Assembly: GCA_000153745.1 (NCBI GenBank)
Contig: DS022282.1
Coordinates: forward strand, 726,027-790,026
Length of the DNA stretch: 64,000 nt
Reading direction: 5' to 3'
DNA from: Rhodobacterales bacterium HTCC2255
GTDB lineage: Bacteria; Pseudomonadota; Alphaproteobacteria; Rhodobacterales; Rhodobacteraceae
In this document: in pieces, positions 21,696-55,581 of the stretch
Layout: every line of letters begins with the position of its first letter
Numbering within the stretch: the stretch's first letter is position 1
Translations under genes and position numbers: made by a program
The notes under the pieces: model-generated
Database searches by the model: none
Seen by the model: the letters and a program-made list of their open reading frames with translations, nothing else
Told to the model about the DNA's origin: nothing

Positions 21696-22790
21696 CTACC
21701 CAAAGTAATGCTTATAAGCTAATTTATAATCAGGTTGGTTAAGGTTTAGATAACCCATAACATTTTTCGCATAAGCTTTTTGGCTTTCGATAACTTTTGC
21801 AAAGAATGCATCTTCACCAGCAATTCTATCTGTAACAACATCCCAAGCTTCTAATTGTGCCTGCATAACACTGTCTGGTGTTCTATGTACATTTACGCCA
21901 TGCTCGCTTTGTAGCTTCTCAAGATCATCAGAATATCTTTTTGTGTTATTCCAATAGAAGTTTGAATTTTCAGCTTCAGAAGCGTATTTTAGGATCGCTT
22001 TGAGCTCATCTGGAAGTTTGTTGTATTTCTTTTTATTAAACGATACCTCAAAGAACTCTTGAGATTGGTGGAAAGATGCCAAATGATAATCTTTTGAGAC
22101 ATCTTGCATACCAAAATCACGGTCTGATGTAGGGTTGTTGTACTCAGCAGCATCAATTAACCCAGATTTCATTGCTGGCTGTATTTCACCACCAGGCAAT
22201 TGAACAACAGACATTCCCATTTCGAGTAATACGTCTGCAGCCAAGCCTACTGTTCGGTATTTTAGGCCTTCCATTTGAGCAGCGCTTTTAATCTCTTCCT
22301 TGAACCAACCTAATGGCTGCGCTGGCATTGGTGAGTTGAAAAACGAAACAAGATTTAAACCTAGGTCGCCCATTAATTCATCAAATAGCTCTTGTCCGCC
22401 ACCATAGTTCACCCAGCCTAGCACTTCTTGTGATGACCAACCAAAACACGGTCCTGTGCCAAATAATGATGCTGTTTTTGACTTAGAATACCAATATGCT
22501 GGCACATAGTGACATGCATCTAGAACACCTCTATGTACTGCATCTTGCATTTGAGACGTTTTCACGACTGAATTTACTGCTAGTAAATCAATTTTCAATG
22601 AATTACCTGCCATCGCGTGGACACGATCTACGTAAGATTGTGCATTTTCAAGGAATATGCCTCCACCCCATGCTGCTTGCATTTTTAGAGTGGTTGCGTG
22701 CCCGTCAGCAATTGCCGGTGTTGCAAGAGTAGCTGCACCTGCCACTGCTGTTCCACGTAAAAATTTTCTACGATTTAATTTATCTGTCAT
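21696..22790 (-). CDS. TRAP transporter periplasmic binding protein (DctP/TakP type)
   Basis: A 364-residue secreted protein. The N-terminus MTDKLNRRKFLRGTAVAG contains the twin-arginine RRKFLRG motif followed by a hydrophobic stretch and a probable ADGHA cleavage region, so it is exported folded by the Tat system. The body is a TRAP solute receptor of the TakP/FcbT1 group (MKMQAAWGGG start of the mature fold, AYWYSKSK, GGEIQPAMKSGLIDAAEYNNP). TakP binds 2-oxo acids, so an organic acid ligand is plausible. The ribosome binding site is very strong, GGGAGGGG about 4-11 nt before the ATG. First gene of the 16-23 kb operon. Confidence 0.92.
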   Translation of the reverse strand: MTDKLNRRKFLRGTAVAGAATLATPAIADGHATTLKMQAAWGGGIFLENAQSYVDRVHAMAGNSLKIDLLAVNSVVKTSQMQDAVHRGVLDACHYVPAYWYSKSKTASLFGTGPCFGWSSQEVLGWVNYGGGQELFDELMGDLGLNLVSFFNSPMPAQPLGWFKEEIKSAAQMEGLKYRTVGLAADVLLEMGMSVVQLPGGEIQPAMKSGLIDAAEYNNPTSDRDFGMQDVSKDYHLASFHQSQEFFEVSFNKKKYNKLPDELKAILKYASEAENSNFYWNNTKRYSDDLEKLQSEHGVNVHRTPDSVMQAQLEAWDVVTDRIAGEDAFFAKVIESQKAYAKNVMGYLNLNQPDYKLAYKHYFG

Positions 22791-51408: not shown

Positions 51409-52103
51409 TGGAGCTGAATTTTAACTCTGTTTCCTTTCGTCAAAATGGCGATACCCTCCTTGGCCCAGTTGATTTCAAAATAAAATTTGAAGGGATCACC
51501 AATGTTCTTGGATATAACGGCGCAGGAAAATCATTATTTTTAGAATTGTGTCATTCTATGATACAGCCAACTTACGGAAGTGTGTATTGGAACGGTCATT
51601 CTGCAAGAGATACAAAGAATTTAAGAGGGTTTATTTTTCAACACCGAGTGACACTATATCGCTCAGTTAAGAAAAATATTGCATTGCCAATGCAAACTGC
51701 AGGATGGAATAAACAATTAATAAAAAATCGTTTAGAAGAACTTCTATTTATGGCCAATCTAGAAACAAAAAGTAACGATCCCGCATCTACCTTATCGGGT
51801 GGGGAAGTCCAGCGTATGGCTTTAGTGCGTGCATTGGCTACATATCCTAAAATGGTAATAATGGACGAACCTACTTCAAGTTTAGACCCAAGCGCCACGA
51901 CACAGTTTGAAGATTTAATATCAAATAGTGCTAATTCTGGTGTAAAATTTTTATGGGCAACACACAATATTAATCAAGCAAAACGCTTTGCTAACGATAT
52001 AATCTTCATATCGGATGGTAAAGTTTCTGAAATTAGTGAAGCAAAGAATTTTTTCAAAAAACCTTCATCAATAAATGCTCAAAACTACATCAAAGGTTTA
52101 TAA
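51408..52103 (+). CDS. tupC: Tungstate ABC transporter ATPase
   Basis: A 231-residue ABC ATPase. Walker A is GYNGAGKSL (about residues 36-44), the signature is LSGGEVQRMAL, Walker B is MVIMDEPTSSLDP and the H-loop is WATHNINQAKR. It powers uptake of tungstate with TupB and TupA; molybdate is a less likely ligand judged by the binding protein. One-base stop/start overlaps with tupB and tupA on either side (TAATG both times). Confidence 0.9.
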   Translation: MELNFNSVSFRQNGDTLLGPVDFKIKFEGITNVLGYNGAGKSLFLELCHSMIQPTYGSVYWNGHSARDTKNLRGFIFQHRVTLYRSVKKNIALPMQTAGWNKQLIKNRLEELLFMANLETKSNDPASTLSGGEVQRMALVRALATYPKMVIMDEPTSSLDPSATTQFEDLISNSANSGVKFLWATHNINQAKRFANDIIFISDGKVSEISEAKNFFKKPSSINAQNYIKGL

Positions 52104-52930
52104 TGAGATTTATTATTTTTCTATTTATGATGCTAGCTAGCTCTGTAAATGCCGAAAGACGAGAGCTTATTTTATCATCAACAACTTCAACTCAAAATTC
52201 AGGCTTGTATGACTATATTTTACCGATGTTTACAAAAGATACTGGAATTTCAGTAAAAGTTGTCGCTGTTGGAACTGGTCAAGCAATAAGAATAGCACGT
52301 AATGGTGATGCAGATGCATTATTAGTTCACCATCGTCCATCTGAAGATCTTTTTATAAAAGATGATTTTGGCAAAGAGCGTTTTGATGTTATGTATAATG
52401 ACTTTGTTCTAATTGGACCCCAAAAGAACAAAACCAAGTTTGAAACACTTTCAGATTTTTTTATTAAAGCCAAAACAACCAGTTTATTCCCATTTATTTC
52501 AAGAGGTGATGATAGTGGTACTCATAAAAAAGAAATAGAATTGTGGAATATTTTCACTAACAGTAAACCAAAAGAAAAATGGTACATTGAAATTGGATCA
52601 GGAATGGGTGCAGCTTTAAATATGGCCTCAGCAACAGATTCCTATACTTTGAGTGACCGAGGGACTTGGTTATCATTTAATAATAAAGGTAACTTAGAAA
52701 TCAAATGGTCTGGTGATGATATAATGCAAAATCCATATGGTTTAATTTTAGTAAATCCTGCTATGTTTCCACACATCAAATCAAAATATGCCAAAGAGTT
52801 TGCTAATTGGATGATATCACCAAAAGGTCAAAAAGCGATAGGTGAGTTTAAAGTTGATGGTAAACAATTATTTTGTCCAAACGCAGAGAAAGAAAAGAAA
52901 AATAGATTATTAGCATGCCCAGCAAACTAA
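52103..52930 (+). CDS. tupA: Tungstate-binding periplasmic protein
   Basis: A 275-residue exported protein with a signal peptide (about residues 1-17, SSVNA-ER). The mature start ELILSSTTSTQNSGLYDYILP contains TTSTQNSGL, the oxyanion-binding signature of TupA, and VGTGQAIRIARNGDADALLVHHRP, SRGDDSGTH and GSGMGAALNMAS follow as further ligand loops. Specific high-affinity tungstate uptake supports tungsten enzymes such as formate dehydrogenases or aldehyde oxidoreductases; none is encoded in this window. A dyad (52946-52964) and the small RNA lie immediately downstream. Confidence 0.92.
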   Translation: MRFIIFLFMMLASSVNAERRELILSSTTSTQNSGLYDYILPMFTKDTGISVKVVAVGTGQAIRIARNGDADALLVHHRPSEDLFIKDDFGKERFDVMYNDFVLIGPQKNKTKFETLSDFFIKAKTTSLFPFISRGDDSGTHKKEIELWNIFTNSKPKEKWYIEIGSGMGAALNMASATDSYTLSDRGTWLSFNNKGNLEIKWSGDDIMQNPYGLILVNPAMFPHIKSKYAKEFANWMISPKGQKAIGEFKVDGKQLFCPNAEKEKKNRLLACPAN

Positions 52931-52945: not shown

Positions 52946-52964
52946 ATATGCATTAGATGCATAT
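52946..52964. repeat. Perfect dyad downstream of tupA
   Basis: ATATGCAT, a TAG spacer and ATGCATAT form a perfect 8-bp inverted repeat 15 nt after the tupA stop. No T-run follows directly, so it is a poor terminator; it may mark an mRNA 3' end or processing site ahead of the small RNA. Confidence 0.45.
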
Positions 52965-53019
52965 CGGCTTTGCAGTATAAACACTTTTAAAATTCCAAAC
53001 ATTTGCTATTTTAATGACA

Positions 53020-53152
53020 TGAGATGAAAAACTCTTTGGTCACCTCCTCCCGACCAAAAAATTTAAATGGCTTCGTATTCTCCCAAATCTGAAGCTACGA
53101 AAAAAAGAACGGTGATATGCTACCTCCTCCCAGCATGTTATCGTTTTTTTTT
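53020..53152 (+). ncRNA. Cuckoo/CcsR-type small RNA with two ACCUCCUCCC hairpins
   Basis: Two hairpins expose the same 10-nt loop ACCTCCTCCC. Hairpin 1 (53035-53058) has a 7-bp stem TTTGGTC/GACCAAA. Hairpin 2 (53108-53145) has a 14-bp stem, fully paired if three G-U pairs are counted, and is followed by nine T from 53144, so it doubles as an intrinsic terminator on the plus strand. The loop is complementary to Shine-Dalgarno sequences. This layout matches the cuckoo RNA family of Alphaproteobacteria and the CcsR stress RNAs of Rhodobacter. A third inverted repeat (TTCGTA/TACGAA) lies between the hairpins. The 5' end is estimated; no promoter is certain, although TATTTTAAT near 53007 could be a -10 region. 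It may also be processed from the tup transcript. Confidence 0.82.
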
Positions 53153-53178: not shown

Positions 53179-55581
53179 TCAATCATTTAAATGAGACACA
53201 AAACTTGCAATTACTTTTTTTGCTCCGCCGGAATCAAATACTATAGAGAGCTTATTTCCTTCAATACCAATAACAGTGCCTTCACCAAGCTTTGTATGCA
53301 TTACTCTATCAGAAATTGAATACTTTTCTGTGACTTTAGCATCTATAATTACAGCTTGAGGGGTTTCTGAGCTATCTAAAAAGCGTTGCGATGTTCTAAT
53401 TTGCATCCGCTTCCAACCAGGGGAATTATATGCATCAGCTTTTGCAGCACGCTCAGGTAAATCACTTTCGAATTCGATGTCTTGTCTTGAAGAATTTCCA
53501 CCATACAAGCCAGGTGGAGTTAGAACCTCTATATTATCCGCAGGTAATTCATCAATAAATCTCGATGGCATTGACGACTGCCATTGACCGTATACTCTAC
53601 GATTAGCCGCGAATGAAATAGTACAAACAGCTTCAGAACGTGTAATTCCTACATATGCTAAACGCCGTTCTTCTTCTAAACCCTTTTGACCAGATTCATC
53701 CATTGATCTTTGAGATGGAAATAATCCATCCTCCCAGCCAGGCAAGAAGACTATCGGAAACTCTAGGCCTTTTGCTCCATGAAGTGTCATTATAGATACT
53801 TTTTCAGTTGAGTCTGAGACATCATTTTCCATGATTAAACTCACATGTTCAAGAAAACCCTGAATATTTTCGAAGCCTTCCAGAGCTTTAACAAGTTCTT
53901 TTAAATTTTCAAGCCTACCTGCTGCTTCAGGCGTTTTGTCATTTTGCCAGAAATCTGTGTAGCCACTTTCTTCTAATATTGTTTGTGCAATTTCAACATG
54001 ACTTGTTTTATCTGAAAAATTATCCAATGTTTCCAGAATTTCACTTCGTGTATTATTGGCTAAATTAGAATTAGATATCAGATTCTTCCAGCGGTCAAAT
54101 CCATCTATTAATTTTCTTAACGAGTTAGACGCTTTTGAAGATAGTCCTCCTTCGTTTAACAAAATGCGAGCCCCCTCCAACATAGATACACCATGGTCAC
54201 GGGCAGTTGTGTTAATTAATTGTTGCGCTTTCTCTCCAATACCACGTTTCGGTGTGTTGACTATACGTTCAAATGCCAAACCATCATCAGGACTCACGGC
54301 AACTCGGAAATAAGCCATTGCGTCTCGAATTTCCATTCGCTCATAAAATCTGGGGCCACCAATAACCCTATAAGGCAATCCAATACTCAGAAACCTGTCT
54401 TCGAATGAACGCATTTGATGAGATGCCCTGACCAAAATCGCCATACTATCTAAGCCAAAAGCAGGGAGCCCCCGCGTGCCTCTTTGATAACTCTCAAGGT
54501 CCTCTCCTACCCATCGAGCTTCTTCTTCACCATCCCAATGACCTATTAGACGTACTTTTTCACCATCCTTGCGAGCTGTCCATAGAGTTTTCCCAAGACG
54601 GTCTTTATTGCCTGCTATAATACCCGATGCTGCAGCAAGAATATCTGGCGTGGATCTATAGTTTTGCTCAAGGCGTACAACTTTTGCACCTTCAAAATCT
54701 CGTTCAAAGCGTAAAATATTTCCAACTTCAGCCCCACGCCACCCATAAATTGACTGATCATCATCACCAACACAGCATATATTTCTATGTTTTGCTGCTA
54801 AAAGACGTAACCACATATATTGTGCAACATTTGTATCTTGATACTCATCAACAAGTATATATTTAAATCCATTTTGATATTTCTCTAGAATATCCGCATT
54901 ATTTTGAAAGATATTTACAACATGCAATAATAGGTCTCCAAAATCCGCTGCGTTTAAAGCTTTTAAGCGACTTTGATATTGCGTATAAAATTCAACACCT
55001 CGACCATTAAATCCATCCTCTCCTGATGGCACATGATTTGGACTCCAAGCGCGATTTTTCCAAGTATCAATAAGACCCAGTAATAAACGTGGGGGCCATC
55101 TTTTTTCATCAATATTTTCAGCTCTTAGTAATTGCTTTAACAATCTCAGTTGGTCATCAGTATCAAGAATTGTAAAATTTGATTTCAATCCAACTATCTC
55201 TGAATGTCTGCGTAATATCTTTACGCATAAAGAATGAAATGTTCCTAACCACGGAAGGCCATCACCAACATTGCCAAGCATCGCACCTACCCGACTCTTC
55301 ATTTCCCGGGCAGCTTTATTTGTAAATGTTACTGCAAGTATCTCATTTGGCCAAGCTTGGTTCATATTCATTAAATGAACAATTCTTGTTGTTAATGCCT
55401 TTGTTTTTCCAGTACCAGCACCAGCTAACATTAAGACAGGCCCATTTAAAGTTTCAACTGCTGATCTTTGAGCAGAATTTAAATCTTCTAAATATGGTGT
55501 CTGTCTGACACCCATTGCTCTTTGAGATAACGTTGTATTACTTTCTATTTGAATAGCTTGATTTTCGTCTCTATTTTTCAT
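53179..55581 (-). CDS. uvrD: UvrD/PcrA-type DNA helicase
   Basis: An 800-residue superfamily 1A 3'-5' helicase: Q motif NSAQRSAVETLNGP, Walker A GAGTGKTKAL, motif II VDEYQDTN, motif III GDDDQSIYGWRGA, motif IV LEQNYRST, motif V MTLHGAKGLEFP and motif VI LAYVGITRSE, and a C-terminal Tudor-like domain (VMHTKLGEGTVIGIEG) that binds RNA polymerase. It unwinds DNA in nucleotide excision and mismatch repair. It is convergent with the small RNA, whose terminator ends about 27 nt from the uvrD stop. Confidence 0.95.
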   Translation of the reverse strand: MKNRDENQAIQIESNTTLSQRAMGVRQTPYLEDLNSAQRSAVETLNGPVLMLAGAGTGKTKALTTRIVHLMNMNQAWPNEILAVTFTNKAAREMKSRVGAMLGNVGDGLPWLGTFHSLCVKILRRHSEIVGLKSNFTILDTDDQLRLLKQLLRAENIDEKRWPPRLLLGLIDTWKNRAWSPNHVPSGEDGFNGRGVEFYTQYQSRLKALNAADFGDLLLHVVNIFQNNADILEKYQNGFKYILVDEYQDTNVAQYMWLRLLAAKHRNICCVGDDDQSIYGWRGAEVGNILRFERDFEGAKVVRLEQNYRSTPDILAAASGIIAGNKDRLGKTLWTARKDGEKVRLIGHWDGEEEARWVGEDLESYQRGTRGLPAFGLDSMAILVRASHQMRSFEDRFLSIGLPYRVIGGPRFYERMEIRDAMAYFRVAVSPDDGLAFERIVNTPKRGIGEKAQQLINTTARDHGVSMLEGARILLNEGGLSSKASNSLRKLIDGFDRWKNLISNSNLANNTRSEILETLDNFSDKTSHVEIAQTILEESGYTDFWQNDKTPEAAGRLENLKELVKALEGFENIQGFLEHVSLIMENDVSDSTEKVSIMTLHGAKGLEFPIVFLPGWEDGLFPSQRSMDESGQKGLEEERRLAYVGITRSEAVCTISFAANRRVYGQWQSSMPSRFIDELPADNIEVLTPPGLYGGNSSRQDIEFESDLPERAAKADAYNSPGWKRMQIRTSQRFLDSSETPQAVIIDAKVTEKYSISDRVMHTKLGEGTVIGIEGNKLSIVFDSGGAKKVIASFVSHLND

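Follow-up and report, generated by a model that had tools for sequence, protein, structure and literature searches.

A probable anti-Shine-Dalgarno small RNA of the cuckoo/ar14 kind, preceded by a putative LysR-type operator, in an AT-rich genome of the Rhodobacteraceae

In the genome of Rhodobacterales bacterium HTCC2255 (G000, 2.30 Mb), three plus-strand hairpins sit in the gap between a gene for a tungstate-type periplasmic binding protein (52103..52930, + strand; Pfam PBP_like_2) and a convergent gene for a UvrD/PcrA-type helicase (53179..55581, - strand; Pfam UvrD-helicase, UvrD_C and tudor), and the question is whether they belong to a regulatory RNA in its own right or merely close the upstream operon. 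All positions refer to the window, i.e., the whole stretch of 64,000 nucleotides that was analyzed (G000:C1:726027-790026; GC content 36%). The upstream gene is presumably a tupA and is called tupA-like here, a name we share with the preliminary description of this DNA.

The RNA, with predicted ends at 53020 and 53152 on the + strand (~130 nt), has a minimum free energy of -38.7 kcal/mol compared to -19.1 (sd 3.1) for shuffled sequences (z -6.2; 0 of 200 shuffles as low). Hairpin 1 (53035..53058, +) has a 7-bp stem and the loop ACCTCCTCCC at 53042-53051. The same loop recurs at 53122-53131 in hairpin 3, an intrinsic terminator (53108..53152, +) consisting of the hairpin proper (53108-53145) and a nine-T run (53144-53152); three of its 14 bp are G-U, two of the nine T already lie within the 14 bp, and further T of the run pair with an upstream A-run in the minimum free energy structure. 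Both the identical 10-nt loops and the last stem (14 bp, three G-U pairs, nine-T tail) had been pointed out in the preliminary description and were found as described. A terminator scan returned nothing at the locus; it allows loops of 3-8 bases only, and the 10-base loop of hairpin 3 falls outside that range. Hairpin 2 (53068..53097, +) requires a correction: the earlier account had counted only two loop copies with a further stem between them, and the stem is indeed present, but it carries a third, shortened anti-Shine-Dalgarno (anti-SD) loop, TTCTCCC. This loop is shared by G000, G218 and G220, and in other relatives it reads TTCCTCCC (G219, G221, G225), TCCTCCTCCC (G199) or ACCTCCTCCC (G120, G228, G223). 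Given these longer loops, and given that the Rfam ar14 alignment puts hairpin 2 in the place of the middle anti-SD hairpin with a five-base loop gap, the molecule is most plausibly a three-loop RNA with one loop eroded, and not a two-loop RNA. The proposed drift toward AT with the loop kept applies to loops 1 and 3 but not to loop 2.

The loop motif alone is not rare in the window: exact ACCTCCTCCC is confined to the two loops, and with one mismatch there are four matches where 1.26 are expected, a number found in 4 of 100 shuffles. In the whole genome CCTCCTCCC occurs four times (twice in these loops and twice inside ORFs), and GGATCACCTCCTTTCT, which we take to be the 3' end of the 16S rRNA with the anti-SD tail, occurs once and has ACCTCCT in common with the loops.

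The stems were compared among the congeneric genomes (Amylibacter and kin). When seven sequences were first aligned, MAFFT misaligned the columns of hairpin 2, and the RNAalifold consensus did not recover it; covariation was therefore counted on loop-anchored alignments of hairpins 1 and 3 only, each with 9 genomes (8 distinct rows) of 17. In hairpin 1, 94.6% of the cells were paired and both sides had changed in six of the seven pairs (12 doubly changed cells); hairpin 3 had 97.3% of its cells paired and 34 doubly changed cells, with changes on both sides in 11 of 14 pairs. For either hairpin, the fraction of paired cells, the covariation score and the count of doubly changed cells were higher than in all of 500 shuffles, and the number of doubly changed pairs was reached in 0 (hairpin 1) and 5 (hairpin 3) of 500. 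The number of further standard pair types was not above the shuffles (112 and 344 of 500 as high for hairpins 1 and 3, respectively). Sliding the partners by 1-3 columns gave far poorer pairing in both hairpins. Nine of the ten loop columns were invariant in each alignment, which is partly by choice because the rows had been picked for their 10-base loop. These comparisons indicate that the loops are kept in the congeneric genomes and that the stems change by compensation, e.g., GCGCCC/GGGCGC in G120 and G228 versus TTGGTC/GACCAA in G000, an example that fits the earlier suggestion of G-U and A-U pairs in place of G-C. The two sequence-based checks on which the earlier interpretation as a whole had been staked, stem covariation in relatives (seen in hairpins 1 and 3) and loop conservation (the loops recur in related genomes), were thus both passed.

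Might the hairpins nevertheless do no more than end the tup operon as its terminator and 3' UTR, or serve tup and uvrD as a bidirectional terminator, with C-rich loops that are incidental? The position between convergent genes and the hairpin with nine T at the end would suit such a role, but there are further hairpins with anti-SD loops on covarying stems, and a conserved box (see below) stands between tupA and the hairpins. Moreover, in G199 the RNA adjoins tupA though uvrD is ~590 kb away, and arrays adjoin uvrD with no tupA match in some loci of the family (e.g., L009, L012 and L014). We regard a mere terminator as very unlikely, and an RNA with anti-SD loops as the better description of the locus.

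At gathering thresholds, Rfam reports only two tRNAs in the window. Below threshold, the ar14 model (RF02344) matches 53023-53148 over its full length with 40.9 bits (E 2.1e-6), short of the gathering score of 58.8 bits. The same holds for all 15 loci tested (the window's own included), which match full length at 35.2-52.0 bits, none at the cut-off. The ar14 RNA of Sinorhizobium meliloti, NfeR1, is reported to have three hairpins, each with an identical CCUCCUCCC loop (PMC10746234); here the full loop is present in hairpins 1 and 3 only, whereas G120, G228 and G199 have the CCUCCUCCC loop in all three hairpins. The RNA resembles ar14/NfeR1 in its size (~125 nt), in its three hairpins of which the last is the terminator, and in its anti-SD loops on variable stems; it differs in scoring under the Rfam cut-off, in the shortened middle loop, in AT-rich stems with G-U pairs, and in its location in Rhodobacteraceae between tupA-like and uvrD genes.

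The CcsR1 model (RF02791) gave no match to the RNA at E up to 10. CcsR RNAs are described as co-transcribed with a DUF1127 gene from an RpoHI/RpoHII promoter (PMC10253847), and there is no DUF1127 gene at the locus studied here, where the conserved upstream feature is the LysR-type box. The locus shares with CcsR1-4 and ccaF1 of Rhodobacter sphaeroides ('CIN1') the occurrence of anti-SD hairpins in Rhodobacteraceae, and its relatives hold a DUF1127 gene together with such hairpins; it differs in having one RNA instead of four, and three hairpins compared to the two reported for RS0680a (PMC3927594). The broader kind is represented by the cuckoo RNAs of rhizobia (RFM SmelA075/SmelA099), which are reported as adjacent CCUCCUCCC-loop hairpins on variable stems, related to stress and proposed to block ribosome sites (PMC3927594). 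With two full CCUCCUCCC loops and one shortened loop on adjacent hairpins, the stems of which vary by compensatory change, the RNA agrees with this broad definition, although one of its three loops is incomplete and a single locus was found in G000 compared to several copies per genome in rhizobia. Cuckoo RNAs have 2 to 4 hairpins. We place the RNA with the cuckoo/ar14 kind, as a variant derived from it, and not as a formal member of ar14 or CcsR. The layout of the cuckoo/CcsR type that had been proposed stands in so far as the ar14 model aligns end to end, albeit under its cut-off, but the CcsR layout proper, with DUF1127 in the locus, is absent; overall, the preliminary interpretation is supported. 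Among the open-licence papers searched, we found none that treats this RNA in Amylibacter or relatives, and our claim of novelty is limited to that literature.

NfeR1 is activated by LsrB through TGCA-N6-GCAT at -72 to -60, and its core promoter is given as CTTAGAC-N17-CTATAT (PMC10746234). Upstream of the RNA we identified a putative operator for an LsrB/VtlR-like LysR-type regulator, TGCATTAGATGCAT (52949..52962, +), which conforms to the same TGCA-N6-GCAT motif (it may also be written TGCA-N6-GCATANCGG) and the conserved extension of which, ATATCGGCTTTGCA, reaches 52974. By eye, from comparison with NfeR1 and the relatives, a candidate core promoter was placed at 52984..53011 (+; CTTTTA at 52984-52989, 16 nt, CTATTT at 53006-53011), so that transcription would start near 53018-53021. 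With a start at 53020 the box lies at about -71 to -58, close to the position in the LsrB/VtlR regulon (about -72 to -60), and the CTT..A/CTATxT form of the promoter is likewise shared with NfeR1. A scan for consensus sigma-70 promoters (TTGACA/TATAAT) found nothing at the locus. The pattern TGC(A/G)-N6-GCATA-N-C-N-G-N3-TGC is present upstream of the RNA in 19 of 19 loci compared, and in 21 of 25 congeneric genomes (23 plus G208 and G199) the box precedes the anti-SD hairpins. In G206 it occurs only after the first motif, before a DUF1127 gene, and in G198, G200 and G208 it is absent genome-wide despite anti-SD arrays.

These features bear on the relation of the RNA to the tup operon, after which it had been placed in the preliminary description: the tupA-like gene is directly upstream, but the space between the two holds a conserved box and what is likely the RNA's own promoter, so that its transcription could be independent of that operon. 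Processing from the 3' UTR of the tup mRNA, with the box serving something else, would have a precedent in CcsR1-4 of R. sphaeroides, which RNase E is reported to release from the ccaF1 mRNA (PMC10253847), and it would agree with the same-strand gene directly upstream and with the presence of a tupA homologue at 17 of 29 congeneric uvrD loci, as far as their flanks reach. Because the box and the -35/-10-like pair show an NfeR1-like spacing between tupA and the RNA, we consider such processing unlikely and prefer transcription from a separate promoter.

Where else does the box occur? The pattern TGCRNNNNNNGCATANCGG was found three times in G000 (none with the reversed control; 0.15 expected from base composition), namely before the RNA, before a DUF1127 gene ~77 kb away, the product of which starts with MAFASTTT (Pfam DUF1127, E 5e-11), and before a 54-aa ORF (box at G000:C1:1779060-1779084, - strand; ORF at L163:1279-1443). 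The latter had no Pfam match when searched in a 51-aa form, and its product may be a novel small protein that belongs to the same regulon. The longer box pattern was present in 26 of 33 genus genomes (46 sites versus 3 for the reversed control) and in 109 of 198 family genomes (by hand count, with the reversed control in 6 of 198). For 55 fetched loci the sequence behind the box was inspected (L168, L175 and L249 were dropped, the site being off the expected place), with DUF1127 matches accepted at E up to 1e-3 against a profile of 37 pieces. A DUF1127 gene or an anti-SD motif followed the box at 23 of 28 congeneric sites and at 9 of 27 family-draw sites, two of these nine being weak DUF1127 matches (3e-4). 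The remaining 23 of the 55 sites precede neither, and 18 of them belong to the family draw (among L234-L261); because the reversed control matches in so few genomes, these 18 are not due to chance alone. The tie of the box to DUF1127 genes and anti-SD hairpins thus appears strong within the genus, and in the wider family the box seems to precede other things as well. Since DUF1127 genes are also preceded by it, the box is no longer regarded as specific to the small RNA. In Amylibacter marinus (L036:1728-2033), the DUF1127 gene downstream of the RNA is preceded by a second TGCA-N6-GCAT box, TGCATCAGGCGCAT, the extension of which is slightly off the pattern.

A regulator that could bind the box was sought among the LysR genes of G000. 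Two rhizobial LysR proteins, taken as LsrB/VtlR by synteny with trxB and not by name, both had L194 (C1, about 346208-347116) as their best match (42% identity, 260 and 261 bits; next 126 and 132). The reverse search with L194 in both rhizobial genomes, Chelativorans multitrophicus and Mesorhizobium sediminum, returned the same trxB-linked genes at 265 and 269 bits (next 141 and 110), so that they are reciprocal best partners, with identities of 42-43% over the two directions. In the helix-turn-helix stretch, 30 of 38 residues are alike (hand count). The trxB active-site motif was found in none of the 1.5-kb flanks of 19 LysR genes of G000, and the trxB locus of G000 gave no LysR match; since no LysR gene lies beside trxB, orthology was tested by reciprocal hits. 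Ruegeria marisrubri has a homologue of L194 at 71%, and the regulator is also present in G198 and G208, both without the box. LsrB is stated in a 2025 paper to be found solely in Rhizobiales (PMC11975290); the reciprocal hits of L194 suggest that it is not confined to that order.

The DUF1127 gene is a recurrent companion of these RNAs. Two copies of CCTCCTCCC at array-like spacing were found by pattern search in 119 of 198 family-draw genomes and in 10 of 33 genus genomes. In 30 family-draw anti-SD loci (L005-L034, with 1.5-kb flanks), DUF1127 was matched in 26 and uvrD in 13. The arrangement resembles the one of anti-SD RNA and DUF1127 gene known in the literature as 'CIN1' (PMC10253847). 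At least one CTCCTCCC or TTCCTCCC was present in 24 of 29 congeneric uvrD loci and absent in five (L058, L060, L070, L072 and L077, some of them short contig ends). By tblastn, 17 of the 24 motif-bearing loci have a DUF1127 gene and seven lack it; six of the seven (G000, G218, G220, G219, G221 and G225) form one clade in the UvrD tree (support 100/98), and the seventh, G223, is placed on another branch. G000 has two DUF1127 genes, ~77 and ~212 kb from the RNA, and no CCTCCC motif was found in the fetched flanks of either.

In Rhizobiales, VtlR, the ortholog of LsrB in Brucella and Agrobacterium, is reported to control AbcR RNAs and DUF1127-type genes (PMC7486931, PMC12595884). As there, small RNAs and DUF1127 genes stand behind a GCAT-type box here and would be controlled by a LysR regulator; the differences are that the genomes belong to Rhodobacteraceae, that the regulator gene is not beside trxB, and that the regulon is deduced from sequence only. 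The LsrB/VtlR circuit might also work in Rhodobacteraceae, with one LysR protein and one box driving anti-SD RNAs and DUF1127 proteins; in the AT-rich clade the protein gene would have left the locus, both kinds of gene would have kept the box, and a regulon of three members (the RNA, a DUF1127 protein and the 54-aa ORF) would have resulted. Because of the 18 unexplained family box sites, we hold the chances of this reading to be even. It would tie the CcsR/CcaF1 locus of Rhodobacter and the LsrB-NfeR1 circuit of rhizobia into one proposed regulatory unit, and since the RNA and the DUF1127 genes are no longer adjacent in this clade, their roles could be tested apart.

How might the RNA act? 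NfeR1 is described as silencing mRNAs at the translation start by three redundant anti-SD loops, with candidate targets that are mostly transport genes (PMC10746234), and by likeness to it the exposed loops are expected to prevent initiation by base-pairing with ribosome sites rich in G. We consider it probable that the RNA is a trans-acting anti-SD RNA of the cuckoo/ar14 (NfeR1-like) kind that is activated by a LysR protein and blocks translation of mRNAs with purine-rich ribosome sites. An LsrB/VtlR-type regulator would bind the box at 52949-52962 and turn on a short transcript from near 53020 to the T-run ending at 53152; the two intact loops (and the shortened one weakly) would expose the sequence of the 16S anti-SD tail and base-pair with ribosome sites that are strong and rich in purines, probably those of transporter and metabolic mRNAs. 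The same regulator would turn on the DUF1127 gene and the 54-aa ORF elsewhere, the DUF1127 gene that relatives have at the locus presumably having been lost from it in this clade.

Duplex prediction on the 53 ORFs of the window gave as by far the best candidate target the mRNA of a TRAP transporter solute-binding protein (DctP type; 21702..22790, - strand), the ribosome site of which, GGGAGGGG, would pair with the loop at -15.4 kcal/mol, followed by a BioY gene at -9.8; TTGGGAGGGGAAT stands before the ATG of the TRAP-transporter gene. For an AT-rich window, the ribosome site of this gene is unusually strong. With the first ATG assumed to be the start codon, loop pairing at -7 kcal/mol was found in 4 of 53 upstream regions and in 16 of 265 gene interiors of the window, i.e., with next to no enrichment (medians -3.3 upstream and -2.4 inside genes), and broad targeting of Shine-Dalgarno sites in the window is not supported; weak ribosome sites of G000 may leave few targets. 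This weak pairing, together with loops that copy the 16S tail and with the multi-copy arrays of other genera, which would suit titration, could also point to an RNA that acts on the ribosome itself, or to a sponge that titrates an RNA-binding protein or a second RNA, and not to action on chosen mRNAs. Two intact loops are, however, poorly suited to titration, and the studied relative NfeR1 is reported to silence specific mRNAs (PMC10746234), so that we judge such an action to be distinctly unlikely and retain the blocking of selected mRNAs as the preferred reading. The RNA appears to be a reduced relative of known stress RNAs that apparently shares a common switch with small protein genes, of a type that adjoins such RNAs in related bacteria. 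Being found at one locus only, in a marine bacterium with a small genome, it offers a simple model for target choice by anti-SD RNAs.

A few observations were made on related loci. In L035, L037 and L038 (G198, G200 and G208), which belong to the same genus, tandem anti-SD units of a different repeat type occur without the LysR box. Several congeneric loci (e.g., L059, L061, L062, L063, L071 and L076) have a second two-hairpin anti-SD unit ~400-900 nt past the first, before uvrD. In L008 (G165:C1:334949-335935) the anti-SD hairpins form a long tandem array, with 24 pattern pairs in one genome, and in L016, from another genus, a cobalamin riboswitch (2118-2304, - strand) lies near the anti-SD array.
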